From positions 15,789,507 through 15,853,506 of the forward strand of contig NC_083637.1 of the NCBI RefSeq assembly GCF_963576545.1: a stretch of 64,000 bases of DNA, read 5' to 3'. Under the pieces are notes generated by a model that did not search any database, was not told where the DNA came from, and was given only the letters and a program-made list of their open reading frames with translations. Position 1 is the first letter of the stretch. Every line of letters begins with the position of its first letter. This DNA is from Limanda limanda (lineage: Eukaryota > Chordata > Actinopteri > Pleuronectiformes > Pleuronectidae). Shown here in pieces: positions 5,424-34,357 of this stretch. The translations under genes were made by a program, and so were the position numbers.

Positions 5424-5549
5424 CTGAAGAAGACGGGTAATTGAAAGGTAATTGTCTTTATATTTTGTGGCAAACCAATTTTGTCTGAGTTTCACCAAAG
5501 AGCCTTTGGTATTGCTGCACAATCACAAAGTTGCTTTATTAGGCTTTAC

Positions 5550-9725: not shown

Positions 9726-9767
9726 CGACACCATGGAACTTTTGCTCTCGTCCTCACTCATGGGTTT
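9726..9767 (-). CDS. ank2: candidate exon end or alternative first exon (MSEDESKSSMVS)
   Basis: A strong TCG|GTAAGA donor at 9720-9726 is preceded by an open stretch reading KEKPMSEDESKSSMVS. It leaves phase 0, exactly fitting the VSAASFK exon. This frame is one base off from the VSSPDNK frame running in from 10033; the shift falls at a five-A run near 9770. Options are a sequencing or real indel, an undetected acceptor, or an alternative promoter/start at the ATG here. I cannot choose between them. Confidence 0.4.
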
Positions 9768-9994
9768 TTCTTTGCATGTTCTTGGAAATCAAATCTTGGA
9801 TGGGTTGTTGCCTTAAATTGTGATTCAGGGTCCGTCCATTTAAGTTTTCTTCGTTTCACTGATTCTCTCTTTACATGAGTGTTTTCATTGAAATCCTCCT
9901 CAAGCCAGACAGCATGATGAAATCCAGATTTTTGCTCTACAGATGGAATGTGACTCAACTCAAAACTAAAATGGCTAATACTTTGTGAAGTTAC

Positions 9995-10033
9995 CTGATC
10001 TAATCTAAGTTGTTTGTTGTCCGGGGAGGAGAC
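9995..10033 (-). CDS. ank2: ank2 39-nt exon (VSSPDNKQLRLDQ)
   Basis: 39 nt, phase 0/0, coding VSSPDNKQLRLDQ. Acceptor is a run of T then ATCAG; donor GTAACT. The frame stays open past this donor for another 79 codons (SISHFSFELSHIPSVEQKSG and so on) and stops at a TGA at 9758-9760. Either the short exon is used in normal isoforms, or the longer version ends the protein. Confidence 0.6.
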
Positions 10034-10095: not shown

Positions 10096-13000
10096 TTATT
10101 CAGAGTGGGATAGTGAGGAATCCTGCAATGAGTCTGTTGTGCTGCTGTCAAAATGACATGGTGTGGCCTGGCTATGTGGATCCCCCATGCTGACTACTAC
10201 ATCTTCAAATGAGTTTTGATCGGAAGCCTTTTCAGACAAATTATCAGCAACCTCTTCAGAATAATTATTCTTATCACCGGCACATTTCTCTTCATAGACT
10301 GGATCAACCTCGTGTTCCATTGAAGTCCCAGAGAGTTGCTTAGATGTAATCTTATTGTCTTCAGAAATAGTGGCATCAGGGTCACTTTGCCCACATGGCA
10401 GCTGGTTTAATACTTCATCTACTCCTCCTATTGATTCTGGAAATTGGGGTGGAAAAGGTCCTAACTCAGACAAATGCACGTGACTACAGGGTTTGCAGTC
10501 GAACTGAGGAACGTGAGATTCAGGAGAAAGGGCAGATAACTCAGCATATGAGGAATATGATTCTGGAGAAGGTGGTCTCATATAATTGAAATGGGAAGGA
10601 CTCTGATTATCCAACTGTAATGTTTCAGGTGACTGTGGTATATATTCTGAAGATGAAGGACTCTCAATTCTTTCAAATTCCTCTGCTTGCTCTCGAGGAC
10701 TTGTGGATGTTGTGTCAGCTGAAATTCTATCATCTCTTTTGTCTTCTGATTTATGTGTTAGCCTTGAAATGTTGTCTGCAATTGTGGTGGCAAACATGGC
10801 AGTTTGTGTTGGTGGTGTAAAATTGACAAAACATGACTGTGTTTTTAGGGAAGATTTGATTAAACATATCTCACCACAAGAACATTTTCCCTTATACAAA
10901 GGATCATGTAAATGTGACATTAAGTTGATGAATGAAGGCTTTTGTCCAACCCGGCATTCTTTAATTAATGGCTTGGCGTTTAATGACATGGATTCAGATA
11001 AAACAAGTTTGTTTTGGTTGAGGTTTCTCTCTGGCTTTTGTACTGATGACGAGAGTTCAGCAGAAAATGTGATCCCAGGGGACAAACTATGCTCTTTAGT
11101 TGAAGCTACAGATTCCGGTGAGGTCACAGCTATGATTGTGATACTGGGTTCACTCCCTAAAGTCAATGAATCCGGGGAATCGGCTCTGTCTTCGTCAAAC
11201 AATTCCTCAAGACAGAACGTGTAGTACTCAACATCTGACAATGTTGAAAGAGGGGACATTGGTCTGTCTTCAGAGTACTTTAAGTAATAGTTACAATGTT
11301 GATTATTCATATGTGCAAATTTAAATCCCAGAGACAAACAGTGCTCTTCAGGTGAAGCTACAGATTCTGGTGAGGATGCTCTAAAGTCTGATAACCAGCT
11401 CTGCAAGAGTGAAAAGTCAAAGTCAGAAGAGACAGACTCTGGGGACAATGCCCTGCTGCAAAATAACCTATCAATTTCAAAGTCTGATAAAACTGACTGT
11501 GGTGACTCTGGTCTGATCTCGTCAAACAGGGCTTCCAGACACAAACCAGTATCACCCCAGTCTGAAAGTATTGAATCTGGTGTATACGACCTGTGCCTCA
11601 ACAGTTCCGCATCATAAGCGAAATAAGGACATCTGAACTGAGGAACAGGCGAGTCAGGAGAGAGGGGCCTAAGTTCACTTTGAGATTCAACTGACTCTGG
11701 AGACTCTGGTCTTAACTCGTCAATCCAATGGTCTATGGAGAACTCTTTATCTGATGGTAATGAGGGAAGGTAAGAGGGTCTCACTTCTAATGATTTGATG
11801 TTGCACAAATCATGAGCTTGGTTTTCTTGTGTTTTTCCCCCCACAATGTCTGCATATGTAAGAGGTTTTCGAGCAAACAGTGGCAGAGAGGAGGTCAGGG
11901 CCATATTTGTGATACTGGGTTCACTCCCTAAAGTCAACGAATCCGGAGAATCTGCTCTGTTGTCGTCAAACAATTCCTCAAGACAGAACGTGGAGTACTC
12001 AACATCTGACAATGCTGAAAGAGGGGATATGGGTCTGTCTTCAGAGTACTTTAAGTAATAGTTACAATGTTGATTATTCATTTGTGCAAATTTAAATCCC
12101 AGAGACAAACAGTGCTCTTCAGTTGAAGCTACAGATTCTGGTGAGGATGCTCTAAAGTCTGATAACCAGCTCTGCAAGAGTGAAAAGTCAAAATCAGAAG
12201 ACACAAACTCTGGGGACAACGCCCTGCTGCTAAATAACCTATCAATTTCAAAGTCTGATAAAACTGACTGTGGTGACTCTGGTCTGGTCTGGTCAAACAG
12301 GGCTTCCAGACACAAACCAGTATCACCCCAGTCTGAAAGTACTGAATCTGGTGTATACGACCTGTGCCTCAACAGTTCCACATCACTACTGAAATATTGA
12401 GATCTGAACTGAGGAACAGGTGAGTCAGGAGAGAGGGGCCGAAGTTCACTTTGAGATACCACTGACTCTGGAGACTCTGGTCTTAACTCGTCAATCCAAT
12501 GGTCTATGGAGAAGAAAGTTAACTCCTCGTTTGGTGACATAGACGGAAGGTAAAAAGACCTTAAGTCAAATGTTTCGATGCTGCATGAAGCTCGGTTTTC
12601 TTGTTTGTAGCCCTGCACAACATCTGCATATGTAGGAAGTCTTCCAGCAGACTGTGACAGAGAGGTCCCAGCTATGTGTGTGATACTGGGTTCACTCCCT
12701 AAAGTCAACGAATCCGGGGAATCTGCTCTGTTGTCGTCAAACAATTCCTCAAGACAGAACGTGGAGTACTCAACATCTGACAATGCTGAAAGAGGGGATT
12801 TGGGTCTGTCTTCAGAGTACTGTAAGTAATAGTTACAATGTTGATGATTCATTATTGCACATTTAGTTCCCGGAGACAAACAGTGCTCTTCAGTTGAAGC
12901 TACAGATTCTGGTGAGGATGCTCTAAAGTCTGATATCCAGCTCTGCAAGAGTGAAAAGTCAAAGTCAGAAGAGACAGACTCTGGGGACAATGCCCTGCTG

Positions 13001-16000
13001 CAAAATAACCTATCAATTTCAAAGTCTGATAAAACTGACTGTGGTGACTCTGGTTTGGTCTGGTCAAACAGGGCTTCCAGACACAAACCAGTATCACCCC
13101 AGTCTGAAAGTATTGAATCTGGTGTATACGACCTGTGCCTCAACAGTTCCGCATCATAAGCGAAATAAGGACATCTGAACTGAGGAACTGGCGAGTCAGG
13201 AGAGAGGGGCCTAAGTTCACTTTGAGATTCAACTGACTCTGGAGACTCTGGTCTTAACTCGTCAATCCAATGGTCTATGTAGAACTCGTCATCTGATGGT
13301 AATGAGGGAAGGTAAGAGGGTCTCACTTCAAATGATTTAATGTTGCACAAATCATGAGCTTGGTTTTCTTGTGTTTTTCCCCGCACAATGTCTGCATATG
13401 TAAGAGGTTTTCGAGCAAACAGTGGCAGAGAGGAGGTCAGGGCCATATTTGTGATACTGGGTTCACTCCCTAAAGTCAACGAATCCGGGGAATCTGCTCT
13501 GTTGTCGTCAAACAATTCCTCAAGACAGAACGTGGAGTACTCAACATCTGACAATGCTGAAAGAGGGGATATGGGTCTGTCTTCAGAGTACTGTAAGTAA
13601 TAATTACAATGTTGATGATTCATTATTGCACATTTAATTTCCGGAGAAAAACAGTGCTCTTCAGTTGAAGCTTCAGATTCTGGTGAGGATGCTCTAAAGT
13701 CTGATATCCAGCTCTGCAAGAGTGAAAAGTCAAAATCAGAAGAGACAGACTCTGGGGACAATGCCCTGCTGCAAAATAACCTATCAATTTCAAAGTCTGA
13801 TAAAACTGACTGTGGTGACTCTGGTCTGGTCTCGTCAAACAGGGCTTCAAGACACAAACCAGTATCACCCCAGTCTGAAAGTACTGAATCTGGTGTATAC
13901 GACCTGTGCCTCAACAGTTCCACATCACTACTGAAATATTGAGATCTGAACTGAGGAACAGGCGAGTCAGGAGAGAGGGGCCGAAGTTCACTTTGAGATT
14001 CAACTGACTCTGGAGACTCTGGTCTTAACTCGTCAATCCAATGGTCTATGGAGAAGAAAGTTAACTCCTCGTTTGGTGACATAGACGGAAGGTAAAAAGA
14101 CCTTAAGTCAAATGTTTCGAGGCTGCATGAAGCTCGGTTTTCTTGTTTGAAGCCCTGCACAACATCTGCATATGTAGGAAGTCTTCCAGCAGACTGTGAC
14201 AGAGAGGTCCCAGCTATGTGTGTGATACTGGGTTCACTCCCTAAAGTCAACGAATCCGGGGAATCTGCTCTGTTGTCGTCAAACAATTCCTCAAGACAGA
14301 ACGTGGAGTACTCAACATCTGACAATGCTGAAAGAGGGGATATGGGTCTGTCTTCAGAGTACTGTAAGTAATAATTACAATGTTGATGATTCATTATTGC
14401 ACATTTAATTCCCGGAGACAAACAGTGCTCTTCAGTTGAAGCTACAGATTCTGGTGAGGATTCTCTAAAGTCTGATAACCAGCTCTGCAAGAGTAAAAAG
14501 TCCAAGTCAGAAGAGACAGACTCTGGGGACAATGCCCTGCTGCAAAATAACCTATCAATTTCAAAGTCTGATAAAACTGACTGTGGTGATTCTGGTCTGA
14601 TCTCGTCAAACAGGGCTTCCAGACACAAACCAGTATCATCCCAGTCTGAAAGTATTGAATCTGGTGTATACGACCTGTGCCTCAACAGTTCCACATCATA
14701 AGCGAAATAGGGACATCTGAACTGAGGAACAGGCGAGTCAGGAGAGAGGGGCCTAAGTTCACTTTGAGATTCAACTGACTCTGGAGGCTCTGGTCTTAAC
14801 TCGTCAATCCAATGGTCTATGTAGAACTCTTCATCTGATGGTAATGAGGGAAGGTAAGAGGGTCTCACTTCTAATGATTTGATGTTGCACAAATCATGAG
14901 CTTGGTTTTCTTGTGTATTTCCCCACACAATGTCTGCATATGTAAGAGGTTTTCGAGCAAACAGTGGCAGAGAGGAGGTCAGGGCCATATTTGTGATACT
15001 GGGTTCACTCCCTAAAGTCAACGAATCCGGGGAATCTGCTCTGTTGTCGTCAAACAATTCCTCAAGACAGAACGTGGAGTACTCAACATCTGAAAATGCT
15101 GAAAGAGGGGATATGGGTCTGTCTTCAGAGTACTGTAAGTAATAATTACAATGTTGATGATTCATTATTGCACATTTAATTCCCGGAGACAAACAGTGCT
15201 CTTCAGTTGAAGCTACAGATTCTGGTGAGGATGCTCTAAAGTCTGATATCCAGCTCTGCAAGAGTGAAAAGTCAAAGTCAGAAGAGACAGACTCTGGGGA
15301 CAATGCCCTGCTGCAAAATAACCTATCAATTTCAAAGTCTGATAAAACTGACTGTGGTGACTCTGGTCTGGTCTCGTCAAACAGGGCTTCCAGACACAAA
15401 CCAGTATCACCCCAGTCTGAAAATATTGAATCTGGTGTATACGACCTGTGCCTCAACAGTTGCGCATCATAAGCGAAATAAGGATATCTAAACTGAGGAA
15501 CAGGCGAGTCAGGAGAGAGGGGCCTAAGTTCACTTTGAGATTCAACTGACTCTGGAGACTCTGGTCTTAAATTGTCAATCCAATGGTCTATGTAGAACTC
15601 GTCATCTGATGGTAATGAGGGAAGGTAAGAGGGTCTCAGTTCTAATGATTTGATGTTGCACAAATCATGAGCTTGGTTTTCTAGTGTATTTCCCCGCACA
15701 ATGTCTGCATATGTAAGAGGTCTTCGAGCAAACAGTGGCAGAGAGGAGGTCAGGGCCATATTTGTGATACTGGGTTCACTCCCTAAAGTCAACGAATCCG
15801 GGGAATCTGCTCTGTTGTCGTCAAACAATTCCTCAAGACAGAACGTGGAGTACTCAACATCTGACAATGTTGAAAGAGGGGAAATGGGTCTGTCTTCAGA
15901 GTACTGTAAGTAATAGTTACAATGTTGATGATTCATTATTGCACATTTAATTCCTGGAGAAAAACAGTGCTCTTCAGTTGAAGCTACAGATTCTGGTGAG

Positions 16001-19000
16001 GATGCTCTAAAGTCTGATATCCAGCCCAGCAAGAGTGAAAAGTCAAAATCAGAAGAGACAGACTCTGGGGACAATGCCCTGCTGCAAAATAACCTATCAA
16101 TTTCAAAGTCTGATAAAACTGACTGTGGTGACTCTGGTCTGATCTCGTCAAACAGGGCTTCAAGACACAAACCAGTATCACCCCAGTCTGAAAGTATTGA
16201 ATCTGGTGTATACGACCTGTGCCTCAACAGTTGCGCATCATAAGCGAAATAGGGACATCTGAACTGAGGAACCGGCGAGTCAGGAGAGAGGGGCCTAAAT
16301 TTACTTTGAGATTCAACTGACTCTGGAGACTCTGGTCTTAACTCGTCAATCCAATGGTCTATGTAGAACTCTTCATCTGATGGTAATGAGGGAAGGTAAG
16401 AGGGTCTCACTTCTAATGATTTGATGTTGCACAAATCATGAGCTTGGTTTTCTTGTGTATTTCCCCGCACAATGTCTGCATATGTAAGAGGTTTTCGAGC
16501 AAACAGTGGCAGAGAGGAGGTCAGGGCCATATTTGTGATACTGGGTTCACTCCCTAAAGTCAACGAATCCGGGGAATCTGCTCTGTTGTCGTCAAACAAT
16601 TCCTCAAGACAGAACGTGGAGTACTCAACATCTGAAAATGCTGAAAGAGGGGATATGGGTCTGTCTTCAGAGTACTGTAAGTAATAATTACAATGTTGAT
16701 GATTCATTATTGCACATTTAATTCCCGGAGACAAACAGTGCTCTTCAGTTGAAGCTACAGATTCTGGTGAGGATGCTCTAAAGTCTGATATCCAGCTCTG
16801 CAAGAGTGAAAAATCAAAGTCAGAAGAGACAGACTCTGGGGACAATGCCCTGTTGCAAAATAACCTATCAATTTCAAAGTCTGATAAAACTGACTGTGGT
16901 GACTCTGGTCTGGTCTCGTCAAACAGGGCTTCCAGACACAAACCAGTATCACCCCAGTCTGAAAGTATTGAATCTGGTGTATACGACCTGTGCCTCAACA
17001 GTTCCGCATCATAAGCGAAATAGGGACATCTGAACTGAGGAACAGGCGAGTCAGGAGAGAGGGGCCTAAGTTCACTTTGAGATTCAACTGACCATGGAGA
17101 CTCTGGTCTTAACTCGTCAATCCAATGGTCTATGTAGAACTCTTCATCTGATGGTAATGAGGGAAGGTAGGAGGGTCTCACTTCTAATGATTTGATGTTG
17201 CACAAATCATGAGCTTGGTTTTCTTGTGTATTTCCCCGCACAATGTCTGCATATGTAAGCGGTCTTCGAGCAAACAGTGGCAGAGAGGAAGTCAGGGCCA
17301 TATTTGTGATACTGGATTCACTCCCTAAAGTCAACGAATCCGGGGAATCTGCTCTGTTGTCGTCAAACAATTCCTCAAGACAGAACGTGGAGTACTCAAC
17401 ATCTGACAATGCTGAAAGAGGGGATATGGGTCTGTCTTCAGAGTACTGTAAGTAATAGTTACAATGTTGATGATTCATTATTGAACATTTAATTCCCGGA
17501 GACAAACAGTGCTCTTCAGTTGAAGCTACAGATTCTGGTGAGGATGCTCTAAAGTCTGATATCCAGCTCTGCAAGAGTGAAAAGTCAAAGTCAGAAGAGA
17601 CAGACTCTGGGGATAATGCCCTGCTGCAAAATAACCTATCAATTTCAAAGTCTGATAAAACTGACTGTGGTGACTCTGGTCTGGTCTCGTCAAACAGGGC
17701 TTCCAGACACAAACCAGTATCACCCCAGTCTGAAAGTATTGAATCTGGTGTATACGACCTGTGCCTCAACAGTTTCGCATCATAAGCGAAATAAGGACAT
17801 CTGAACTGAGGAACAGGCGAGTCAGGAGAGAGGGGCCTAAGTTCACTTTGAGATTCAACTGACTCTGGTCTTAACTCGTCAATCCAATGGTCTATGTAGA
17901 ACTCGTCATCTGATGGTAATGAGGGAAGGTAAGAGGGTCTCAGTTCTAATGATTTGATGTTGCACAAATCATGAGCTTGGTTTTCTAGTGTATTTCCCCG
18001 CACAATGTCTGCATATGTAAGAGGTCTTCGAGCAAACAGTGGCAGAGAGGAGGTCAGGGCCATATTTGTGATACTGGGTTCACTCCCTAAAGTCAACGAA
18101 TCCGGGGAATCTGCTCTGTTGTCGTCAAACAATTCCTCAAGACAGAACGTGGAGTACTCAACATCTGACAATGTTGAAAGAGGGGATATGGGTCTGTCTT
18201 CAGAGTACTGTAAGTAATAGTTACAATGTTGATGATTCATTATTGCACATTTAATTCCTGGAGAAAAACAGTGCTCTTCAGTTGAAGCTACAGATTCTGG
18301 TGAGGATGCTCTAAAGTCTGATATCCAGCCCAGCAAGAGTGAAAAGTCAAAATCAGAAGAGACAGGCTCTGGGGACAATGCCCTGCTGCAAAATAACCTA
18401 TCAATTTCAAAGTCTGATAAGACGGACTGTGGTGACTCTGGTCTGGTCTCGTCAAACAGGGCTTCCAGACACAAACCAGTATCATCCCACTCTGAAAGTA
18501 CTGAATCTGGTGTATAAGACCTGTGCCTCAACAGTTCCACATCACTACTGAAATATGGAGATCTGAACTGAGGAACAGGCGAGTCAGGAGAGAGGGGCCT
18601 AAGTTCACTTTGAGATTCAACTGACTCTGGAGACTCTGGTCTTAACTCGTCAATCCAATGGTCTATGTAAAACTCGTCATCTGATGGTAATGAGGGAAGG
18701 TAAGAGGGTCTCACTTCTAATGATTTGATGTTGCACAAATCATGAGCTTGGTTTTCTTGTGTATTTCCCCGCACAATGTCTGCATATGTAAGAGGTTTTC
18801 GAGCAAACAGTGGCAGAGAGGAGGTCAGGGCCATATTTGTGATACTGGGTTCACTCCCTAAAGTCAACGAATCCGGGGAATCTGCTCTGTTGTCGTCAAA
18901 CAATTCCTCAAGACAGAACGTGGAGTACTCAACATCTGAAAATGCTGAATGAGGGGATATGGGTCTGTCTTCAGAGTACTGTAAGTAATAATTACAATGT

Positions 19001-22000
19001 TGATGATTCATTATTGCACATTTAATTCCCGGAGACAAACAGTGCTCTTCAGTTGAAGCTACAGATTCTGGTGAGGATGCTCTAAAGTCTGATATCCAGC
19101 TCTGCAAGAGTGAAAAGTCAAAGTCAGAAGAGACAGACTCTGGGGACAATGCCCTGCTGCAAAATAACCTATCAATTTCAAAGTCTGATAAAACTGACTG
19201 TGGTGACTCTGGTCTGGTCTCGTCAAATAGGGCTTCCAGACACAAACCAGTATCACCCCAGTCTGAAAATATTGAATCTGGTGTATACGACCTGTGCCTC
19301 AACAGTTCCGCATCATAAGCGAAATAAGGATATCTAAACTGAGGAACAGGCGAGTCAGGAGAGATGGGCCTAAGTTCACTTTGAGATTCAACTGACTCTG
19401 GAGACTCTGGTCTTAAATTGTCAATCCAATGGTCTATGTAGAACTCTTCATCTGATGGTAATGAGGGAAGGTAGGAGGGTCTCACTTCTAATGATTTGAT
19501 GTTGCACAAATCATGAGCTTGGTTTTCTTGTGTATTTCCCCGCACAATGTCTGCATATGTAAGCGGTCTTCGAGCAAACAGTGGCAGAGAGGAAGTCAGG
19601 GCCATATTTGTGATACTGGATTCACTCCCTAAAGTCAACGAATCCGGGGAATCTGCTCTGTTGTCGTCAAACAATTCCTTAAGACAGAACGTGGAGTACT
19701 CAACATCTGACAATGTTGAAAGAGGGGATATGGGTCTGTCTTCAGAGTACTGTAAGTAATAGTTACAATGTTGATGATTCATTATTGCACATTTAATTCC
19801 TGGAGAAAAACAGTGCTCTTCAGTTGAAGCTACAGATTCTGGTGAGGATGCTCTAAAGTCTGATATCCAGCCCCGCAAGAGTGAAAAGTCAAAATCAGAA
19901 GAGACAGACTCAGGGGACAATGCCCTGCTGCAAAATAACCTATCAATTTCAAAGTCTGATAAGACGGACTGTGGTGACTCTGGTCTGGTCTCGTCAAACA
20001 GGGCTTCCAGACACAAACCAGTATCATCCCACTCTGAAAGTACTGAATCTGGTGTATAAGACCTGTGCCTCAACAGTTCCACATCACTACTGAAATATGG
20101 AGATCTGAACTGAGGAACAGGCGAGTCAGGAGAGAGGGGCCTAAGTTCACTTTGAGATTCAACTGATTCTGGAGACTCTGGTCTTAACTCGTCAATCCAA
20201 TGGTCTATGTAGAACTCTTCATCTGATGGTAATGAGGGAAGGTAAGAGGGTCTCACTTCTAATGATTTGATGTTGCACAAATCATGAGCTTGGTTTTCTA
20301 GTGTATTTCCCCGCACAATGTCTGCATATGTAAGAGGTCTTCGAGCAAACAGTGGCAGAGAGGAGGTCAGGGCCATATTTGTGATACTGGGTTCACTCCC
20401 TAAAGTCAACGAATCCGGGGAATCTGCTCTGTTGTCGTCAAACAATTCCTCAAGACAGAACGTGGAGTACTCAACATCTGACAATGTTGAAAGAGGGGAT
20501 ATGGGTGTGTCTTCAGAGTACTGTAGGTAATAGTTACAATGTTGATGATTCATTATTGCACATTTAATTCCTGGAGAAAAACAGTGCTCTTCAGTTGAAG
20601 CTACAGATTCTGGTGAGGATGCTCTAAAGTCTGATATCCAGCTCTGCAAGAGTGAAAAGTCAAAGTCAGAAGAGACAGACTCTGGGGACAATGCCCTGCT
20701 GCAAAATAACCTATCAATTTCAAAGTCTGATAAAACTGACTGTGGTGACTCTGGTCTGGTCTCGTCAAACAGGGCTTCAAGACACAAACCAGTATCACCC
20801 CAGTCTGAAAGTACTGAATCTGGTGTATACGACCTGTGCCTCAACAGTTCCACATCACTACTGAAATATTGAGATCTGAACTGAGGAACAGGCGAGTCAG
20901 GAGACAGGGGCCGAAGTTCACTTTGAGATTCAACTGACTCTGGAGACTCTGGTCTTAACTCGTCAATCCAATGGTCTATGGAGAAGAAAGTTAACTCCTC
21001 GTTTGGTGACATAGACGGAAGGTAAAAAGACCTTAAGTCAAATGTTTCGATGCTGCATGAAGCTCGGTTTTCTTGTTTGAAGCCCTGCACAACATCTGCA
21101 TATGTAGGAAGTCTTCCAGCAGACTGTGACAGAGAGGTCCCAGCTATGTGTGTGATACTGGGTTCACTCCCTAAAGTCAACGAATCCGGGGAATCTGCTC
21201 TGTTGTCGTCAAACAATTCCTCAAGACAGAACGTGGAGTACTCAACATCTGACAATGCTGAAAGAGGGGATATGGGTCTGTCTTCAGAGTACTGTAAGTA
21301 ATAATTACAATGTTGATGATTCATTATTGCACATTTAATTCCCGGAGACAAACAGTGCTCTTCAGTTGAAGCTACAGATTCTGGTGAGGATGCTCTAAAG
21401 TCTGATAACCAGCTCTGCAAGAGTGAAAAGTCAAAATCAGAAGAGACAGACTCAGGGGACAATGCCCTGCTGCAAAATAACCTATCAATTTCAAAGTCTG
21501 ATAAAACTGACTGTGGTGACTCTGGTCTGGTCTCGTCAAACAGGGCTTCCAGACACAAACCAGTATCATCCCACTCTGAAAGTACTGAATCTGGTGTATA
21601 AGACCTGTGCCTCAACAGTTCCACATCACTACTGAAATATGGAGATCTGAACTGAGGAACAGGCGAGTCAGGAGAGAGGGGCCTAAGTTCACTTTGAGAT
21701 TCAACTGACTCTGGAGACTCTGGTCTTAACTCGTCAATCCAATGGTCTATGTAGAACTCTTCATCTGATGGTAATGAGGGAAGGTAAGAGGGTCTCAGTT
21801 CTAATGATTTGATGTTGCACAAATCATGAGCTTGGTTTTCTAGTGTATTTCCCCGCACAATGTCTGCATATGTAAGAGGTCTTCGAGCAAACAGTGGCAG
21901 AGAGGAGGTCAGGGCCATATTTGTGATACTGGGTTCACTCCCTAAAGTCAACGAATCCGGGGAATCTGCTTTGTTGTCGTCAAACAATTCCTCAAGACAG

Positions 22001-25000
22001 AACGTGGAGTACTCAACATCTGACAATGTTGAAAGAGGGGATATGGGTGTGTCTTCAGAGTACTGTAGGTAATAGTTACAATGTTGATGATTCATTATTG
22101 CACATTTAATTCCTGGAGAAAAACAGTGCTCTTCAGTTGAAGCTACAGATTCTGGTGAGGATGCTCTAAAGTCTGATATCCAGCTCTGCAAGAGTGAAAA
22201 GTCAAAGTCAGAAGAGACAGACTCTGGGGACAATGCCCTGCTGCAAAATAACCTATCAATTTCAAAGTCTGATAAAACTGACTGTGGTGACTCTGGTCTG
22301 GTCTCGTCAAACAGGGCTTCAAGACACAAACCAGTATCACCCCAGTCTGAAAGTACTGAATCTGGTGTATACGACCTGTGCCTCAACAGTTCCACATCAC
22401 TAATGAAATATTGAGATCTGAACTGAGGAACAGGCGAGTCAGGAGACAGGGGCCGAAGTTCACTTTGAGATTCAACTGACTCTGGAGACTCTGGTCTTAA
22501 CTCGTCAATCCAATGGTCTATGGAGAAGAAAGTTAACTCCTCGTTTGGTGACATAGACGGAAGGTAAAAAGACCTTAAGTCAAATGTTTCGATGCTGCAT
22601 GAAGCTCGGTTTTCTTGTTTGAAGCCCTGCACAACATCTGCATATGTAGGAAGTCTTCCAGCAGACTGTGACAGAGAGGTCCCAGCTATGTGTGTGATAC
22701 TGGGTTCACTCCCTAAAGTCAACGAATCCGGGGAATCTGCTCTGTTGTCGTCAAACAATTCCTCAAGACAGAACGTGGAGTACTCAACATCTGACAATGC
22801 TGAAAGAGGGGATATGGGTCTGTCTTCAGAGTACTGTAAGTAATAATTACAATGTTGATGATTCATTATTGCACATTTAATTCCCGGAGACAAACAGTGC
22901 TCTTCAGTTGAAGCTACAGATTCTGGTGAGGATGCTCTAAAGTCTGATAACCAGCTCTGCAAGAGTGAAAAGTCAAAGTCAGAAGAGACAGACTCTGGGG
23001 ACAATGCCCTGCTGCAAAATAACCTATCAATTTCAAAGTCTGATAAAACTGACTGTGGTGACTCTGGTCTGATCTCGTCAAACAGGGCTTCCAGACACAA
23101 ACCAGTATCACCCCAGTCTGAAAGTATTGAATCTGGTGTATACGACCTGTGCCTCAACAGTTCCGCATCATAAGCGAAATAGGGACATCTGAACTGAGGA
23201 ACAGGCGAGTCAGGAGAGAGGGGCCTAAATTTACTTTGAGATTCAACTGACTCTGGAGACTCTGGTCTTAACTCGTCAATCCAATGGTCTATGTAGAACT
23301 CTTCATCTGATGGTAATGAGGGAAGGTAAGAGGGTCTCACTTCTAATGATTTGATGTTGCACAAATCATGAGCTTGGTTTTCTTGTGTATTTCCCCGCAC
23401 AATGTCTGCATATGTAAGAGGTTTTCGAGCAAACAGTGGCAGAGAGGAGGTCAGGGCCATATTTGTGATACTGGGTTCACTCCCTAAAGTCAACGAATCC
23501 GGGGAATCTGCTCTGTTGTCGTCAAACAATTCCTCAAGACAGAACGTGGAGTACTCAACATCTGAAAATGCTGAAAGAGGGGATATGGGTCTGTCTTCAG
23601 AGTACTGTAAGTAATAATTACAATGTTGATGATTCATTATTGCACATTTAATTCCCGGAGACAAACAGTGCTCTTCAGTTGAAGCTACAGATTCTGGTGA
23701 GGATGCTCTAAAGTCTGATATCCAGCTCTGCAAGAGTGAAAAATCAAAGTCAGAAGAGACAGACTCTGGGGACAATGCCCTGTTGCAAAATAACCTATCA
23801 ATTTCAAAGTCTGATAAAACTGACTGTGGTGACTCTGGTCTGGTCTCGTCAAACAGGGCTTCCAGACACAAACCAGTATCACCCCAGTCTGAAAGTATTG
23901 AATCTGGTGTATACGACCTGTGCCTCAACAGTTCCGCATCATAAGCGAAATAGGGACATCTGAACTGAGGAACAGGCGAGTCAGGAGAGAGGGGCCTAAG
24001 TTCACTTTGAGATTCAACTGACCATGGAGACTCTGGTCTTAACTCGTCAATCCAATGGTCTATGTAGAACTCTTCATCTGATGGTAATGAGGGAAGGTAA
24101 GAGGGTCTCACTTCTAATGATTTGATGTTGCACAAATCATGAGCTTGGTTTTCTTGTGTATTTCCCCGCACAATGTCTGCATATGTAAGAGGTTTTAGAG
24201 CAAACAGTGGCAGAGAGGAGGTCAGGGCCATATTTGTGATACTGGGTTCACTCCCTAAAGTCAACGAATCCGGGGTATCTGCTCTGTTGTCGTCAAACAA
24301 TTCCTCAAGACAGAACGTGGAGTACTCAACATCTGACAATGCTGAAAGAGGGGATATGGGTCTGTCTTCAGAGTACTGTAAGTAATAGTTACAATGTTGA
24401 TGATTCATTATTGCACATTTAATTCCCGGAGACAAACAGTGCTCTTCAGTTGAAGCTACAGATTCTGGTGAGGATGCTCTAAAGTCTGATATCCAGCTCT
24501 GCAAGAGTGAAAAGTCAAAGTCAGAAGAGACAGACTCTGGGGATAATGCCCTGCTGCAAAATAACCTATCAATTTCAAAGTCTGATAAAACTGACTGTGG
24601 TGACTCTGGTCTGGTCTCGTCAAACAGGGCTTCCAGACACAAACCAGTATCACCCCAGTCTGAAAGTATTGAATCTGGTGTATACGACCTGTGCCTCAAC
24701 AGTTTCGCATCATATGCGAAATAAGGACATCTGAACTGAGGAACAGGCGAGTCAGGAGAGAGGGGCCTAAGTTCACTTTGAGATTCAACTGACTCTGGTC
24801 TTAACTCGTCAATCCAATGGTCTATGTAAAACTCGTCATCTGATGGTAATGAGGGAAGGTAAGAGGGTCTCACTTCTAATGATTTGATGTTGCACAAATC
24901 ATGAGCTTGGTTTTCTTGTGTATTTCCCCGCACAATGTCTGCATATGTAAGAGGTTTTAGAGCAAACAGTGGCAGAGAGGAGGTCAGGGCCATATTTGTG

Positions 25001-28000
25001 ATACTGGGTTCACTCCCTAAAGTCAACGAATCCGGGGTATCTGCTCTGTTGTCGTCAAACAATTCCTCAAGACAGAACGTGGAGTACTCAACATCTGACA
25101 ATGCTGAAAGAGGGGATATGGGTCTGTCTTCAGAGTACTGTAAGTAATAGTTACAATGTTGATGATTCATTATTGCACATTTAATTCCCGGAGACAAACA
25201 GTGCTCTTCAGTTGAAGCTACAGATTCTGGTGAGGATGCTCTAAAGTCTGATATCCAGCTCTGCAAGAGTGAAAAGTCAAAGTCAGAAGAGACAGACTCT
25301 GGGGATAATGCCCTGCTGCAAAATAACCTATCAATTTCAAAGTCTGATAAAACTGACTGTGGTGACTCTGGTCTGGTCTCGTCAAACAGGGCTTCCAGAC
25401 ACAAACCAGTATCACCCCAGTCTGAAAGTATTGAATCTGGTGTATACGACCTGTGCCTCAACAGTTTCGCATCATATGCGAAATAAGGACATCTGAACTG
25501 AGGAACAGGCGAGTCAGGAGAGAGGGGCCTAAGTTCACTTTGAGATTCAACTGACTCTGGTCTTAACTCGTCAATCCAATGGTCTATGTAAAACTCGTCA
25601 TCTGATGGTAATGAGGGAAGGTAAGAGGGTCTCACTTCTAATGATTTGATGTTGCACAAATCATGAGCTTGGTTTTCTTGTGTATTTCCCCGCACAATGT
25701 CTGCATATGTAAGAGGTCTTTGAGCAAACAGTGTCAGAGAGGAAGTCAGGGCCATATTTGTGATACTGGGTTCACTCCTGAAAGTCAACGAATCAGGGGA
25801 ATCTGCTCTGATGTCGTCAATCAATTCCTCAAGACAGAACGTGGAGTACTCAACATCTGACAATGCTGAAAGAGGGGATATGGGTCTGTCTTCAGAGTAC
25901 TGTAAGTAATAGTTACAATGTTGATGATTCATTATTGCACATTTAATTCCCGGAGACAAACAGTGCTCTTCAGTTGAAGCTACAGATTCTGGTGAGGATG
26001 CTCTAAAGTCTGATATCCAGCTCTGCAAGAGTGAAAAGTCAAAGTCAGAAGAGACAGACTCTGGGGACAATGCCCTGCTGCAAAATAACCTATCAATTTC
26101 AAAGTTTGATAAAACTGACTGTGGTGACTCTGGTCTGGTCTCGTCAAACAGGGCTTGCAGACACAAACCAGTATCACCCCAGTCTGAAAGTATTGAATCT
26201 GGTGTATACGACCTGTGCCTCAACAGTTCCGCATCATAAGCGAAATAAGGACATCTGAACTGAGGAACAGGCGAGTCAGGAGAGAGGGGCCTAAGTTCAC
26301 TTTGAGATTCAACTGACTCTGGTCTTAACTCGTCAATCCAATGGTCTATGTAGAACTCGTCATCTGATGGTAATGAGGGAAGGTAAGAGGGTCTCACTTC
26401 TAATGATTTGATGTTGCACAAATCATGAGCTTGGTTTTCTAGTGTATTTCCCCGCACAATGTCTGCATATGTAAGAGGTCTTCCAGCAAACAGTGGCAGA
26501 GAGGAAGTCAGGGCCATATTTGTGATACTGGGTTCACTCCCTAAAGTCAACGAATCCGGGGAATCTGCTCTGTTGTCGTCAAACAATTCCTCAAGACAGA
26601 ACGTGGAGTACTCAACATCTGAAAATGCTGAAAGAGGGGATATGGGTCTGTCTTCAGAGTACTGTAAGTAATAATTACAATGTTGATGATTCATTATTGC
26701 ACATTTAATTCCCGGAGACAAACAGTGCTCTTCAGTTGAAGCTACAGATTCTGGTGAGGATGCTCTAAAGTCTGATATCCAGCTCTGCAAGAGTGAAAAA
26801 TCAAAGTCAGAAGAGACAGACTCTGGGGACAATGCCCTGTTGCAAAATAACCTATCAATTTCAAAGTCTGATAAAACTGACTGTGGTGACTCTGGTCTGG
26901 TCTCGTCAAACAGGGCTTCCAGACACAAACCAGTATCACCCCAGTCTGAAAGTATTGAATCTGGTGTATACGACCTGTGCCTCAACAGTTCCGCATCATA
27001 AGCGAAATAGGGACATCTGAACTGAGGAACAGGCGAGTCAGGAGAGAGGGGCCTAAGTTCACTTTGAGATTCAACTGACCATGGAGACTCTGGTCTTAAC
27101 TCGTCAATCCAATGGTCTATGTAGAACTCTTCATCTGATGGTAATGAGGGAAGGTAAGAGGGTCTCACTTCTAATGATTTGATGTTGCACAAATCATGAG
27201 CTTGGTTTTCTTGTGTATTTCCCCGCACAATGTCTGCATATGTAAGAGGTTTTAGAGCAAACAGTGGCAGAGAGGAGGTCAGGGCCATATTTGTGATACT
27301 GGGTTCACTCCCTAAAGTCAACGAATCCGGGGTATCTGCTCTGTTGTCGTCAAACAATTCCTCAAGACAGAACGTGGAGTACTCAACATCTGACAATGCT
27401 GAAAGAGGGGATATGGGTCTGTCTTCAGAGTACTGTAAGTAATAGTTACAATGTTGATGATTCATTATTGCACATTTAATTCCCGGAGACAAACAGTGCT
27501 CTTCAGTTGAAGCTACAGATTCTGGTGAGGATGCTCTAAAGTCTGATATCCAGCTCTGCAAGAGTGAAAAGTCAAAGTCAGAAGAGACAGACTCTGGGGA
27601 TAATGCCCTGCTGCAAAATAACCTATCAATTTCAAAGTCTGATAAAACTGACTGTGGTGACTCTGGTCTGGTCTCGTCAAACAGGGCTTCCAGACACAAA
27701 CCAGTATCACCCCAGTCTGAAAGTATTGAATCTGGTGTATACGACCTGTGCCTCAACAGTTTCGCATCATATGCGAAATAAGGACATCTGAACTGAGGAA
27801 CAGGCGAGTCAGGAGAGAGGGGCCTAAGTTCACTTTGAGATTCAACTGACTCTGGTCTTAACTCGTCAATCCAATGGTCTATGTAAAACTCGTCATCTGA
27901 TGGTAATGAGGGAAGGTAAGAGGGTCTCACTTCTAATGATTTGATGTTGCACAAATCATGAGCTTGGTTTTCTTGTGTATTTCCCCGCACAATGTCTGCA

Positions 28001-31000
28001 TATGTAAGAGGTTTTAGAGCAAACAGTGGCAGAGAGGAGGTCAGGGCCATATTTGTGATACTGGGTTCACTCCCTAAAGTCAACGAATCCGGGGTATCTG
28101 CTCTGTTGTCGTCAAACAATTCCTCAAGACAGAACGTGGAGTACTCAACATCTGACAATGCTGAAAGAGGGGATATGGGTCTGTCTTCAGAGTACTGTAA
28201 GTAATAGTTACAATGTTGATGATTCATTATTGCACATTTAATTCCCGGAGACAAACAGTGCTCTTCAGTTGAAGCTACAGATTCTGGTGAGGATGCTCTA
28301 AAGTCTGATATCCAGCTCTGCAAGAGTGAAAAGTCAAAGTCAGAAGAGACAGACTCTGGGGATAATGCCCTGCTGCAAAATAACCTATCAATTTCAAAGT
28401 CTGATAAAACTGACTGTGGTGACTCTGGTCTGGTCTCGTCAAACAGGGCTTCCAGACACAAACCAGTATCACCCCAGTCTGAAAGTATTGAATCTGGTGT
28501 ATACGACCTGTGCCTCAACAGTTTCGCATCATATGCGAAATAAGGACATCTGAACTGAGGAACAGGCGAGTCAGGAGAGAGGGGCCTAAGTTCACTTTGA
28601 GATTCAACTGACTCTGGTCTTAACTCGTCAATCCAATGGTCTATGTAAAACTCGTCATCTGATGGTAATGAGGGAAGGTAAGAGGGTCTCACTTCTAATG
28701 ATTTGATGTTGCACAAATCATGAGCTTGGTTTTCTTGTGTATTTCCCCGCACAATGTCTGCATATGTAAGAGGTCTTTGAGCAAACAGTGTCAGAGAGGA
28801 AGTCAGGGCCATATTTGTGATACTGGGTTCACTCCTGAAAGTCAACGAATCAGGGGAATCTGCTCTGATGTCGTCAATCAATTCCTCAAGACAGAACGTG
28901 GAGTACTCAACATCTGACAATGCTGAAAGAGGGGATATGGGTCTGTCTTCAGAGTACTGTAAGTAATAGTTACAATGTTGATGATTCATTATTGCACATT
29001 TAATTCCCGGAGACAAACAGTGCTCTTCAGTTGAAGCTACAGATTCTGGTGAGGATGCTCTAAAGTCTGATATCCAGCTCTGCAAGAGTGAAAAGTCAAA
29101 GTCAGAAGAGACAGACTCTGGGGACAATGCCCTGCTGCAAAATAACCTATCAATTTCAAAGTTTGATAAAACTGACTGTGGTGACTCTGGTCTGGTCTCG
29201 TCAAACAGGGCTTGCAGACACAAACCAGTATCACCCCAGTCTGAAAGTATTGAATCTGGTGTATACGACCTGTGCCTCAACAGTTCCGCATCATAAGCGA
29301 AATAAGGACATCTGAACTGAGGAACAGGCGAGTCAGGAGAGAGGGGCCTAAGTTCACTTTGAGATTCAACTGACTCTGGTCTTAACTCGTCAATCCAATG
29401 GTCTATGTAGAACTCGTCATCTGATGGTAATGAGGGAAGGTAAGAGGGTCTCACTTCTAATGATTTGATGTTGCACAAATCATGAGCTTGGTTTTCTAGT
29501 GTATTTCCCCGCACAATGTCTGCATATGTAAGAGGTCTTCCAGCAAACAGTGGCAGAGAGGAAGTCAGGGCCATATTTGTGATACTGGGTTCACTCCCTA
29601 AAGTCAACGAATCCGGGGAATCTGCTCTGTTGCCGTCAAACAATTCCTCAAGACAGAACGTCGAGTACTCAACATCTGACAATGTTGAAAGAGGGGATAT
29701 GGGTCTGTCTTCAAAGTACTGTAAGTAATAGTTACAATGTTGATGATTCATTATTGCAAATTTAATTCCCGGAGAAAAACAGTGCTCTTCAGTTGAAGCT
29801 ACAGATTCTGGTGAGGATGCTCTAAAGTCTGATATCCAGCTCTGCAAGAGTGAAAAGTCAAAATCAGAAGAGACAGACTCTGGGGACAATGCCCTGCTGC
29901 AAAATAACCTATCAATTTCAAAGTCTGATAAAACTGACTGTGGTGACTCTGGTCTGGTCTCGTCAAACAGGGCTTCTAGACACAAACCAGTATCATCCCA
30001 GTCTGAAAGTATTGAATCTGGTGTATATGACCTTTGCCTTAACAGTTCCGCATCATAACTGAAATATGGAGATCTAAACTGAGGAACGGGAGAGTCAGGA
30101 GAGAGGGGCCTAAGTTCACTTTGAGATTCAACTGACCATGGAGACTGTGGTCTAAACTCCTCAATGAAATGGTCTCCGTAGGAGAGTGTGAACTCTTCAT
30201 CTGAAGTTAACAAGGGAAGGTTAAAGGGTCTCACCTCTAATGATTCAAGTTTTCTTAAAGCATTATTTTGTATTTTGCATGGGCAGCCCCGCACAACGTC
30301 TGCATAGGTAAGAGGTTTTCCAATAGACAGTGGTCGGGAAGCAGTCCCAGCTCCATTTGTGCTGTTAGTGTCAGCTTGTAAAGTAAGTTCATCTGGCGAA
30401 TCTTGTGTGTTGTTGTTAAACGATTCCTTGACAGAACATGTTGAATATTCAACATCTGACACTGTTGAAAGTGGTGACACTGGTCTACCTTCAGAATATG
30501 CCAAGTAATAGTCACATTGTTGACTCTCTACCTGGCCAAATGTAATCTCAGGAGACAGAAATTGCTGGTCAATTGACTCTACACATTCTTGGGAGGACGT
30601 TACAAAACTGGTTAATAATTGCTCCATTACACTAACCTGTTTTATTTTATCCAAAGTGTTTTCAAGACATACATCATTATAAAATGGTTCTGAACACCGG
30701 GTTGGAGTGTCTAATGTGAGTCTTAATTTGTTAATGTCATCTTCAAGTTGTGTATAATTGCAGTCAGTTTTTGCCTTTTCAAGGTAGGTTGTTTTTAAAT
30801 TTGATATTGGTTGTACTTTATTTGCAAACTTCAGACTGTATTTTGGTCTTGCGGCCAGGTTAAAGATGAACTGTTCGGGTGAATATTGTTTTTTCAGCAT
30901 ATGGCAATCTTCAGGTGATTGTCTTTCATGTTTGGTATAAAAGTTTAGTTTCGGACATTCTTTCTGCCAATGCAAACTTCTGGACTCTTGGAAGTTATTG

Positions 31001-33076
31001 TTTGTTAAATCATTATTTGACTGACTTGGTGATGACGTGTAATCAGAAGATTGTGGTTTTAATTGGGAAAACCAGTAATCAAGAAAAGGATTACTGATCC
31101 CCTCTTCTGCTTTTGGGGGTTCAGATGACAGTGTCCTGGCTTCTGTACTATTTGAACTGTCTGAATGTTCACTTTGGATACTTTTGACATGTGTAAGATA
31201 TGATGCAGCTAAAATAGCTTTTGTTTGCAAGGGTGCCCTTTCTTCATCTGTTGGGTTTATGCCTCTTTGGCATGGTGATGAAAGAGAATGCCCAGAATAT
31301 TGCCAATAATCACTTTTTATATCCTTGTTTTGCGAGACCAACACATGTGATGGGAGATAAGCTTTTGTTGCAAGAGATTCTTGAGACACAGGAGGATTTT
31401 GATTTGAAGCTACTAATTTTGCTGTGAAGGGCCTACCCGGACTCACTTTGTTACTGCAGACTGTATTGTGAGGAGTTGATGTCATAAGTGGTGAGGGGAG
31501 ATTTCCTTCTGAATATTGCAAATAATAATCACAATATTGACTTGAAAGTTGAGCACGAATAGGTTCTGACAGCACAAGTTCAAGAAATGAAAAACTACAC
31601 TGGGAACTCTGAGATTCTCGTGACGATGGTCGACATTCCCTATCAGAAGATCCGTATTCATGAATAGAGGTAGCTGGGTCAGGTGAAGAGGCTCTTGAAT
31701 CAGGAGAAATATCTTCTAGCAAAAATTCATCATACTCAATTTCCAATGTCCCAGGTGAGGTTGCTCTGACTTTAAGTATATTTTCATTATATTTAGGTGC
31801 TTGGGACTTAGCGGACAATGGCCTATTCTTCACCAAGGACTCGGTAGTGGGGTCATCTTTTGTAACAAATTGTGGGTAACGTTCCTCTTTGTGTGACTGA
31901 TGGGGGTGTGATTTACTTTCTTTGAAATCAGTTGTAACTTCTGGTGAGCTCCATGCATCAGACCATGGAGACAGTCTATGTCTGCTGTCAAAAATAACGG
32001 AAAAGTCTTTAGTACAAGTAGGAGAGTCAGGTGACATTGGCCTATAATCATTAATTGACATGACAGATTCAGGAGATGACAGTCTAGTTATGGAGTCATT
32101 AAACATCCATGACTCTAATGAGTCAAATGGATTCTCTGAAGAATCTGAATCAGGGGTCAAAGGGCTAAACTGTGGTGTGAGATTGGGGATGGGGAAAAAA
32201 TGGCTGGAAGAGATCATCTTTGACTTAGAAGTGTAAGATGTATTTTCCCTGACAATGAAATGTTCACTGTCTGGACTAATAAAACTGGAATTATAGTACC
32301 TACCAGTTGAGTCACAAACCATCGGAGCTGAGTCACTGGGTGTCAACATGGTCTTTGTGACCTTCATTTTGATTGGTTTCATCGAGCTGTACTTGGCTGT
32401 GGCAATAACAGAATCTGATGCCTGGACACCGTCCTTATCATCGATGAAGGGCATGTCTTCTGGATATCTATAACTGTATGCTTGGGGTTTTGTGCTTCCT
32501 TCCTTGCTTAATTTGACCTCATTAGACTTCTGAAAGAGCCTGCTTTTTGGAGCTACATCGGTTTCATCTTCAGGCATGGCCGGAGTTGCTTGATGGTCCT
32601 CTTGTGACAATGCTAGCTGGCTAGGGTCAGAGATCATTTTACCGCTGGTTTTAGCTGAATCTCTTTCTCCAAGTTGTAGTGTGTAGCTTAACTCATTACA
32701 AAGCTCACTGAAGTCAGTCTCAGCTTGGTCTGACTCTGATAGACTGAGACCAAAGTCGCTGATTGATATGGATGCTGGCAACTTCAGAATTTCAGGCCAA
32801 TGCCCGTGTTGATCTTCAGAACCACAATGCATCAATGGTAAGATGTGGCTGAAGTCATCTTTGACTTGGCAGTGAGGGCCACTGACGAAATGAACTTGAT
32901 CACTGCAGCAACTTTTCTGGTCTTTCATTTGTGGGTCATTAGCCTGAATTGCTTGGCTTCCCAATGCTGCATCTTTTGAGTTGGGAAGCGTACTTACTTG
33001 CTCATCAGAGTTGTCGTAACCTGTAGGTTCGGGTGTAATTACATCCTCAGAGGTCCACAGATTAGGGTTTAATTCT
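10096..33076 (-). CDS. ank2: ank2 giant exon 2: post-death-domain Ser-Pro repeat exon
   Basis: One continuous open frame of about 7,660 codons following a good acceptor (T-rich tract then TTACAG at 33077-33082), phase 2 in, ending in TAA at 10096-10098. Residues 1 to about 850 are unique, Ser/Pro-rich and disorder-like, with motifs such as RPMSPDSPT and SSPESVMS. Residues about 850 to 7,320 are roughly 25 tandem copies of a 254/257-residue unit. The last 340 residues are again unique. Each unit includes TYADIVRG, DHWIDELRPES, RPLSPDSPVPQF, RSYTPDSILSDW, RALSPESVSSDFDF and NYYLQYSEDRPISPLS. No catalytic or globular domain is recognisable. By position it corresponds to the muscle-specific C-terminal insert region of ankyrins (inference). 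An internal GTAAGT donor after 32998 offers a 79-nt short version of the exon, so this huge form is probably an isoform. Where the giant form ends (stop here, or a weak internal donor such as GAT|GTAGTA near 10200) is not settled. Confidence 0.85.
20318..23400 (-). repeat. higher-order duplicate: 1,542-nt two-unit blocks
   Basis: Two consecutive two-unit blocks (offset 1,542 nt) share the alternation of a TYADIVRG unit and a variant TYADVVQG unit and the private EDTPISPLST variant. A few differences exist (for example DDNRAD versus DDNKAD), so this duplication is slightly older than the 3,057-nt one. Confidence 0.8.
26487..29540 (-). repeat. higher-order duplicate: 3,057-nt four-unit block
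   Basis: This block and the adjacent one at about 23430-26483 appear the same wherever I compared them, offset 3,057 nt (one 771-nt plus three 762-nt units). Both carry the same private variants, such as CLQALFDE, VLSNFEIDRLF, EELIDDIRADS and LTLFAQRPLTY. It indicates a very recent tandem duplication, or an assembly duplication. Confidence 0.85.
32998..33076 (-). CDS. ank2: ank2 short form of the giant exon 2 (alternative 5' splice site)
   Basis: 79 nt, phase 2 in, 0 out; ELNPNLWTSEDVITPEPTGY then DNSDEQ. It ends at a consensus CAA|GTAAGT donor. This exit phase matches all the following exons (39-nt exon, 599-codon exon, obscurin-type exon), whereas splicing straight from the 33354-33564 exon to any of these would break the frame. 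It is therefore very likely the constitutive part of the exon. Confidence 0.8.
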
Positions 33077-33353: not shown

Positions 33354-33564
33354 TGTGGGATTTCAAGCTCGTCCAACAGGTCACCATGGATGCTCTCTGA
33401 GTGGGTATGTCCAGCAGGCTCTGCCCAGGAAGGAATATCCAGTAGGGAAGCAACTGACAGGTCCTCTTCAGAAACAGCTGGGGGTGGTCTGCGATCCGTC
33501 TCCACCATTCTCACAAACCTGGGGCTGTCTACATCCTCTTGCACAGAAGATAGGGCAACTGACA
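33354..33564 (-). CDS. ank2: ank2 exon: tail after death domain
   Basis: 211 nt, phase 1 in, 2 out; [20 protein letters not shown], then [20 protein letters not shown] and [10 protein letters not shown]. The VSEEDLSV segment matches IVSEEDISV of mammalian ANK2. The strong GTAAGT donor leaves phase 2, which only the acceptor at 33077 matches among the downstream exons. Confidence 0.93.
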
Positions 33565-33656: not shown

Positions 33657-33797
33657 CTTCACTGTGATCCAGTGTTTTCTCGATCTCTGCATAAGTTCTA
33701 GATGTTTGCTCTTGAACTGACTTGTTCATCTGAGTTTCAATAAGATGGACTATGTCCATGCGGTTGATCTTGGTTAGCCTCTTAATTAGACAGTCCT
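33657..33797 (-). CDS. ank2: ank2 exon: end of death domain
   Basis: 141 nt, phase 1/1; [20 protein letters not shown] then [28 protein letters not shown]. Conserved [12 protein letters not shown] helix. Confidence 0.96.
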
Positions 33798-34128
33798 CTG
33801 TGGAAGAATTTATTCATTATTAATATACTAGAGAAAGCATTCAAATCACAAAATATAGAAAATAAAATGTAAGAATATATTTAATCTAAAATCTGACATA
33901 ATAATGAATATGGCTCTACTATATGCAAAAATACATTGATCAATTTAAAACCAAAGATAAAATACATTAATTGAACAGGATGTGCTCACATAACTGAGAG
34001 TACATATAAATAAAAAGCTAATATTATGGTCAGTATAGTTAAACAAACAAGCATGGTTACAGGATTTGAAGTATTGAATTGACATGTACCACAAGATGTA
34101 AAATGCAATAAATAAAAACAAAATTTAC

Positions 34129-34260
34129 CTGTGGCATGTTTACCTTCCCGCTCAACCCAGCACTGCAGCAAGGCATGGCTCTGCTCTTGGAGGGAATTAG
34201 GATTCTCTGTTCTCACTGACTGGATTTCATTCTCACTAAATTCCAATTCTCTTGCCAGCT
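34129..34260 (-). CDS. ank2: ank2 exon: death domain
   Basis: 132 nt, phase 1/1; [20 protein letters not shown] then [24 protein letters not shown]. Six-helix death-fold core residues (ENPNSL, ALL..W) are present. In ankyrins this domain contributes to partner binding and autoregulation rather than apoptosis. Confidence 0.96.
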
Positions 34261-34357
34261 CTGAGGTGATAAATAACAGAAGCAAGGGTTCAAATTCAAT
34301 TAAAGTTTAAAAATTAAGATAAAAAACTATGAATGTTTACATAATTTAAAAACTTAC

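Follow-up and report, generated by a model that had tools for sequence, protein, structure and literature searches.

Does a vertebrate ankyrin gene carry a second giant exon, placed behind its death domain (DD), and what might so long a tail do? The question is raised by a stretch of 64,000 nucleotides from the genome of Limanda limanda (assembly GCF_963576545.1, contig NC_083637.1, positions 15,789,507 to 15,853,506; the whole stretch is called the window below), the minus strand of which holds a fish ank2 gene with a very long, repetitive open frame on the far side of the DD. In the reading favored here, to which a probability of roughly 0.55 is given, this frame is a second giant exon of teleost ank2a that is switched on by the skipping of a splice donor, and its 864-kDa product would be a disordered tail serving as a length-tunable tether or spacer between the membrane and the cytoskeleton.

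The Open Frame and Its Place in the Gene

The longest stop-free stretch in the window (10096-33150, minus strand) comprises 7,684 codons. From an acceptor ttacag/A at 33076 (a slash marks the splice junction) it reads 7,659 residues up to a TAA at 10096-10098, giving a predicted tail with an isoelectric point of 4.36. The phase is matched, the exon that follows the DD (the tail exon) ending in CCA CA/gtaagt at 33354 and the giant exon adding the third base. Scored with an approximate weight matrix, as are all splice sites in this report, the acceptor at 33076 stands at the 98.97th percentile among all AG sites on the strand. About 1,281 codons precede the second repeat unit, and the log10 chance of these staying open is about -35. 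Computed on the window itself, the splice signals, the phase and the position behind the DD are thus as the original prediction had them, and the frame comes in addition to a giant frame ahead of the DD (43330-35006), which occupies the UPA-DD interval typical of pre-DD giant exons; the frame under study, being behind the DD, lies outside that interval. The lower boundary of 9995 named at that time has to be given up: the frame does not reach it, and a separate candidate microexon of 39 nt ends there.

The gene was compared with a set of 194 fish proteins (cited by P numbers) from three protein searches, which yielded 111 rows, 105 rows from 1,206 scored candidates, and the best 120 of 143 rows from 7,965 scored candidates. 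These proteins are database predictions and several are isoforms of one gene, those of Syngnathus scovelli above all, so that counts over the set are not independent. Among PDB death domains that of the window is nearest to Ankyrin-2 (4.6e-35, top structure 4d8o), followed by Ankyrin-3 (1.3e-26) and Ankyrin-1 (8.1e-21), and the top PDB match of the ANK repeats is 4rlv_A, a chain labelled Ankyrin-1, Ankyrin-2. Used as a probe, the tail exon is 84-91% identical to the DD-containing proteins named ank2a, except P0102 and P0110 (no match), and to proteins named ank2b it shows 39% (P0072) or no match. Judged by its ANK repeats, ZU5-UPA, DD and this probe, the gene is classed as ank2a, not ank2b. 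Its parts, all on the minus strand, are listed below; the label E44 is taken from mouse Ank3 exon 44 by position only.

About 59.2 to 51.6 kb, minus strand: ANK-repeat exons
48.4 to 45.2 kb, minus strand: ZU5-UPA exons
35006 to 43330, minus strand: giant exon 1 (pre-DD), a stop-free frame of 2,775 codons with no RxxSPxS motif
33657 to 34435 (outer bounds approximate), minus strand: three DD exons, best PDB match Ankyrin-2 4d8o
33354 to 33564, minus strand: tail exon behind the DD, ending in phase 2
10096 to 33076, minus strand: predicted giant exon 2 (post-DD), 7,659 codons and TAA
32998 to 33076, minus strand: short form of giant exon 2, 79 nt, ending at the proximal donor CAA/gtaagt in phase 0
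30616 to 33075, minus strand: non-repeated N-terminal part of the tail; residues 82-820 are 85% identical to Platichthys flesus P0001
11134 to 29994 (low end approximate), minus strand: tandem array of units r1-r25, in which r10, r12, r21 and r23 form a second subtype and r25 is about half a unit
23450 to 29632, minus strand: block with an exact 3,126-bp duplication, copies 29632-26507 and 26575-23450
9995 to 10033, minus strand: candidate microexon of 39 nt, phase 0, strong acceptor and donor
9727 to 10033, minus strand: stretch with a broken frame, similar to the tail's 3' end in other fish (32-36% to P0006 and P0012; compared by eye with P0106 and P0011)
Last base 9726, minus strand: would-be distal donor TCG/gtaaga of the frame-broken stretch
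6589 to 8445, minus strand: E44, the next exon, starting in phase 0 with a frame that runs to a stop at 6589
3700 to 6198 (approximate), minus strand: exons of the canonical ankyrin C-terminal domain

Giant exon 1 holds a tandem array of its own at 37665-39882 (7.7 copies of 288 bp, or 96 residues, 85% matching), and repetition is therefore common to the two giant exons.

The Repeat Array and the Conserved Module

The array consists of 25 units of 254 or 257 residues, in agreement with the some 25 Ser-Pro-rich repeats first proposed; 24 of them are 87.4-100% identical in DNA and the last retains about its first half only. A stretch of 3,126 bp is present twice, letter for letter, at a lag of 3,057, which means that four units may stem from a very recent duplication or from an assembly error and that the copy number lies between 21 and 25. 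Among codons with single-base variants in r1-r24, 44 changes at 175 synonymous sites compare with 82 at 605 non-synonymous sites, which gives a ratio of 0.54. Within the frame (11400-29841) the acceptor-like string cactcttgcag/AGCTG occurs 21 times and the donor-like string AGAA/gtgagac 16 times, all in phase 0, so that units could be spliced out in frame. The isoform models of Syngnathus scovelli vary in unit number.

The length of the unit differs from fish to fish. The strongest array period is 256 residues in Platichthys, 258 in Phycodurus, 248-252 in Syngnathus, 326 and 260 in Sparus, 72 in Scomber, 115 in Oncorhynchus, 299 in Carassius, 300 in Pygocentrus and 319 in another species inspected. 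A shorter element recurs throughout. The motif R-x-x-S/T-P-x-S is found 191 times in the window tail (mean 1.0 and maximum 4 in 200 shuffles), not once in giant exon 1 or in E44, and 72-167 times in each of seven other tails tested, at a median spacing of 25-27 residues (14 in Megalops). When the tails are aligned on this pattern, the pattern's own letters being present by construction, an acidic residue two positions before R, D/E after P and S three positions after the last S are common to all eight sets; less uniform are P after R (seven of eight) and E six positions after the last S (six of eight). On the sequences compared, the 257-residue unit is lineage-specific, and what is conserved is a module of some 26 residues centered on RPxSPxS; of the repeat as originally described, the array stands and the unit gives way to the module.

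The tail contains 287 S/T-P sites, and 92 sites fit RPx(S/T)P, the consensus of DYRK1A (PMC3325943). Ser and Glu make up 24.2% of the residues (27.5% in the tail of ank2b, the paralog described below), against approximately 25% given for post-DD giant exons of the invertebrate type. Length, acidity, low complexity and the dense S/T-P sites suggest, on grounds of composition, a disordered chain. No Pfam family reaches its cut-off on a single unit, PF23793 remaining below it. In nine two-unit pieces PF23793 attains 1.2e-08 in the best of five (a value summed over repeats) and PF08117 is below its cut-off in the member shown, and the sole PDB match of the unit scores 0.02; all three were judged to be chance. 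An in-frame comparison of the unit with E44 reached E 0.007 at best when composition was left uncorrected, and the YAD-V-x-G motif that the two share is only a hint of common origin.

Two further motifs were noted in the tail. SxIP sites, the EB-type microtubule motif, number 39 in the window (shuffled mean 18.7, maximum 31) and are likewise more numerous than in any shuffle in Platichthys, Ictalurus and Clupea. No such excess is present in Sparus (8 sites against 11.2), Paramormyrops (10 sites against 10.9), Megalops or Carassius, and the candidate was dropped because it is not common to all the tails tested. A Y/H-D-P-x-Y-like motif with a basic residue or G behind it is present close to the tail's end (10888-10914, minus strand) and at other places in it, as well as in P0001, P0002, P0011, P0072 and P0106, that is, in both ank2a and ank2b (e.g., HLHDPLYKG, KLYDPLYQG); it is a possible partner-binding site.

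The Paralog and Other Teleosts

A search of the Limanda limanda genome (717 Mb, 336 contigs; E at most 0.001, 45 candidates scored) with the unit returned 27 matches, 26 of them inside the window and one on contig C22. The latter locus (15879321-15891620) is an ank2 paralog, taken as ank2b from a weak tail-exon match (36%). It repeats the order of the window gene: ZU5-UPA, a pre-DD frame of 1,570 codons with no motif, DD, tail exon, a post-DD frame of 4,100 codons with 81 motifs, and C-terminal exons. The strongest internal periods of this second frame are 130, 454 and 324 residues, and its acceptor is in the same phase as in ank2a. Units of the two paralogs are about 30% identical, and that both frames remain open despite such divergence is hard to explain without coding selection.

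An open frame in related fish was one of the checks proposed together with the original prediction, and frames are open in this paralog and in many teleost gene models. Nor is such a tail unique to the window gene: apart from the paralog, databases already contain predicted proteins that carry it, labelled for example "uncharacterized protein" or "ankyrin-2b isoform X3". Relatives span Paramormyrops, Brienomyrus, Megalops, Clupea, salmonids, carps, catfish and many percomorphs, a range that we take to include early-branching teleosts, and none of the named matches listed in the three length-limited searches is from outside the teleosts (six proteins are unnamed). The closest to the tail among the matches listed is Platichthys flesus LOC133953471 (83% identity over the query stretch). 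Platichthys P0001 has 20 unit matches, 18 of them near-full, spaced mostly by 256 residues.

The DD is recognizable in 121 of the 194 proteins. Where it is accompanied by at least 10 motifs (57 of 194), the DD is preceded by 5 motifs in total and followed by 3,196; a further 72 proteins have at least 10 motifs and no DD in the model. Of the 129 models that have 10 motifs or more, 87 retain the C-terminal domain, and every one of their 5,602 motifs lies upstream of it. Five proteins are named mucin-like or serine-rich adhesin for platelets: P0036, P0064 and P0073, which carry the post-DD motif tail, and P0125 and P0128, which carry giant exon 1, DD, E44 or the C-terminal domain. Judging from these contents, the names mucin-like, serine-rich adhesin and uncharacterized given to such fish proteins are likely wrong, and the tail serves to flag such proteins as probably misnamed pieces of ankyrin-2.

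Splice Choice and the End of the Tail

A strong donor, CAA/gtaagt at 32998 (score 9.6, 99.6th percentile, phase 0), lies 79 nt from the start of giant exon 2, and ank2b has its counterpart, AAACAA/gtaagt (score 9.6, phase 0), 61 nt from the exon start. The short models P0157 and P0156 (Hippoglossus and Paralichthys) fit a junction from this proximal donor to E44 exactly (DNSDEQ/VS or VP, a junction deduced from the protein sequence), and E44 of the window is 86% identical to Hippoglossus hippoglossus P0157. In Morone, Syngnathus and Pseudochaenichthys the giant models continue across this donor (EQVST). As the donor is common to both paralogs and fits the short models, an alternative 5' splice site probably sets the length of the tail, short or giant, and giant exon 2 looks like an extension of a small exon past its proximal donor. 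The 39-nt candidate microexon (10033-9995; 13 residues) could sit between the short exon and E44; it is absent from both flatfish short models compared.

At the other end, the stretch of the window that resembles a distal end (10033-9727, with its donor at 9726) lies behind the TAA and does not continue the frame, so that in this lineage the giant isoform would lack the C-terminal domain. Platichthys P0001 likewise stops close to the matching position; the models of turbot (P0126), Syngnathus (P0011) and Morone (P0106) keep the domain. In ank2b a distal donor CAGAGG/gtaaga (score 8.7, phase 0) is found 15 nt ahead of the stop and could return the frame to the C-terminal exons. From the Hippoglossus model P0157 and the frame lengths of the window, the protein would have an estimated 9,360 residues if giant exon 1 is left out and as many as about 12,130 if it is included.

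How the Tail May Work, and What Speaks for Other Readings

We infer that the frame is transcribed and that the giant tail would be made when the proximal donor is skipped. Each module of about 26 residues would then provide one phospho-site on an acidic chain, the 92 RPx(S/T)P sites being candidates for phosphorylation at a DYRK-type consensus; phosphorylation might extend the chain or make it collapse and so govern what it binds, and unequal recombination could change its length. Such a tail would act as a phosphorylation-tuned tether or brush between the membrane skeleton and the cytoskeleton, a role modelled on Drosophila Ank2-XL and C. elegans UNC-44, and in the window it would end at its own stop in place of the canonical C-terminal domain.

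Several observations weigh against this scheme. Over 10 unit pairs selected from 300 possible, the ratio of non-synonymous to synonymous differences per site (pN/pS) ranges from 0.41 to 1.05, and constraint on the unit itself is accordingly modest. Strong in-phase donors inside the frame (30235, 30637, 31447) could splice the array out. The giant-exon acceptor of ank2b scores only 2.6. Many models have no array, 64 of the 121 DD proteins showing fewer than 10 motifs, and all the comparison proteins are database predictions. The share of Ser/Glu/Thr/Asp/Lys/Pro, 47.2% (52.9% in the ank2b tail), is under the more than 55% reported for ankyrin long exons. AlphaFold gives two units a confidence score (pLDDT) of 31, but the positive control, two ANK repeats, reached only 52, so that the low value is no demonstration of disorder.

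Could the frame be an open intron, the array being normally removed and the real exon being either the 79-nt short form or a non-repeated part of 2.8 kb? The donors at 32998 (9.6) and 30235 (9.8) would both serve, each in phase 0, and the short gene models of Hippoglossus and Paralichthys skip the tail; against that stand 24 near-identical units without any stop, sequence and motifs conserved in frame, and motif-bearing frames that are open both in this genome's ank2b and in numerous models from other teleosts, and we regard it as distinctly unlikely. The tail might instead be coding and tolerated without being used, its repeats growing and shrinking by unequal crossing-over with no selected role beyond staying open. 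The variation of the strongest period between species (from 72 to 326 residues), the pN/pS values up to 1.05 and the exact 3.1-kb duplication would suit such an origin, which is nevertheless unlikely given that RxxSPxS is kept at 72-191 copies in the eight tails tested, in both paralogs and in presumed early-branching teleosts, far over the shuffles.

An assembly artefact, in which the array was inflated or invented by the assembler, could draw on that same 3,126-bp duplication with its lag of 3,057, but unit pairs outside it differ by 0.3-12.6% in DNA, Platichthys P0001 has its own series of units at a similar spacing and the paralog its own array, so that this account is highly improbable. 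It is also improbable that the tail belongs to a muscle isoform as a sarcomere or sarcolemma scaffold of the obscurin- or titin-binding kind. Muscle ankyrin-G isoforms do have inserts in the C-terminal domain, the obscurin-binding domains of mouse Ank3 exons 46-49 (PMC4449188), but these are small exons (54-87 nt) further 3'; giant exon 2 is too large for, and lies ahead of E44 and hence apart from, the small obscurin-binding exons that follow exon 45 (PMC4449188), and the Pfam and PDB comparisons of the single unit offer no domain of that kind.

Comparison with Known Systems

Giant ankyrin tails behind the DD are known as a kind. Long exons are described as lying upstream of the DD in chordates and downstream of it in protostomes and echinoderms, with one switch between the two and an uncertain position for the lancelet (PMC5135030). 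The frame of the window, by its length, splice signals and position, is a predicted exon of unusual length downstream of the DD, like those of Ank2-XL and UNC-44 AO13. Drosophila Ank2-XL has a giant exon there whose array of 93 tandem units, each of 76 residues, has been proposed to serve as a molecular spacer (PMC5135030), and its large C-terminal repeat region is essential for microtubule interaction (PMC6703079); the fish tail differs in having units of 257 residues made from modules of about 26, and the fish gene has a pre-DD long exon as well. C. elegans UNC-44 AO13 likewise ends in a repeat tail rich in Ser/Thr/Glu/Pro (STEP), encoded by a long exon downstream of the DD, and this mainly neuronal form anchors microtubules at the cortex via UNC-119 and UNC-33 (PMC5135030, PMC7159925); its repeat is not that of the fish. 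Long exons are reported to show no sequence relation even between phyla (PMC5135030).

Nearer relatives are less alike. Zebrafish AnkB also has two long exons, but these are the two parts of what is one unbroken sequence in the AnkB of mouse and human (PMC5135030) and so do not correspond to giant exon 2. The giant exon of vertebrate AnkB and AnkG (440/480-kDa isoforms) shares the gene family, the alternative use and the biased composition; it precedes the DD, and its counterpart in the window (43330-35006) has none of the motifs of the second exon. The likeness to another long tail is one of possible working only: that of the neurofilament heavy chain, a non-ankyrin protein with a different repeat. 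Its KSP tail is long, acidic and disordered, with repeated phosphorylatable Ser-Pro sites, and is regarded as a spacer of cytoskeletal elements.

Among the matches listed from the open-licence literature (titles and abstract openings), none describes a giant exon behind the DD in any vertebrate. The original statement that no such exon was known holds to that extent for vertebrates and fails for ankyrins at large, since post-DD giant repeat exons are known in fly and worm (PMC5135030). The occurrence in a vertebrate, the long exons on both sides of the DD, the donor switch and the module appear to be new. With long exons apparently on both sides, teleost ank2 would have either evolved this design a second time or retained an old one. 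The chances seem evenly poised that teleost ank2 re-created the invertebrate type of tail by extending a small exon past its splice donor before the teleost duplication, that this tail is built of a new phospho-module, and that in this flatfish it makes one of the largest vertebrate proteins, a phosphorylation-tuned polymer brush on the membrane skeleton. If expressed, the tail would be a vertebrate counterpart of the fly and worm tails that organize microtubules and axon calibre, available in animals with genetics (zebrafish, medaka, killifish) and in natural series of lengths.

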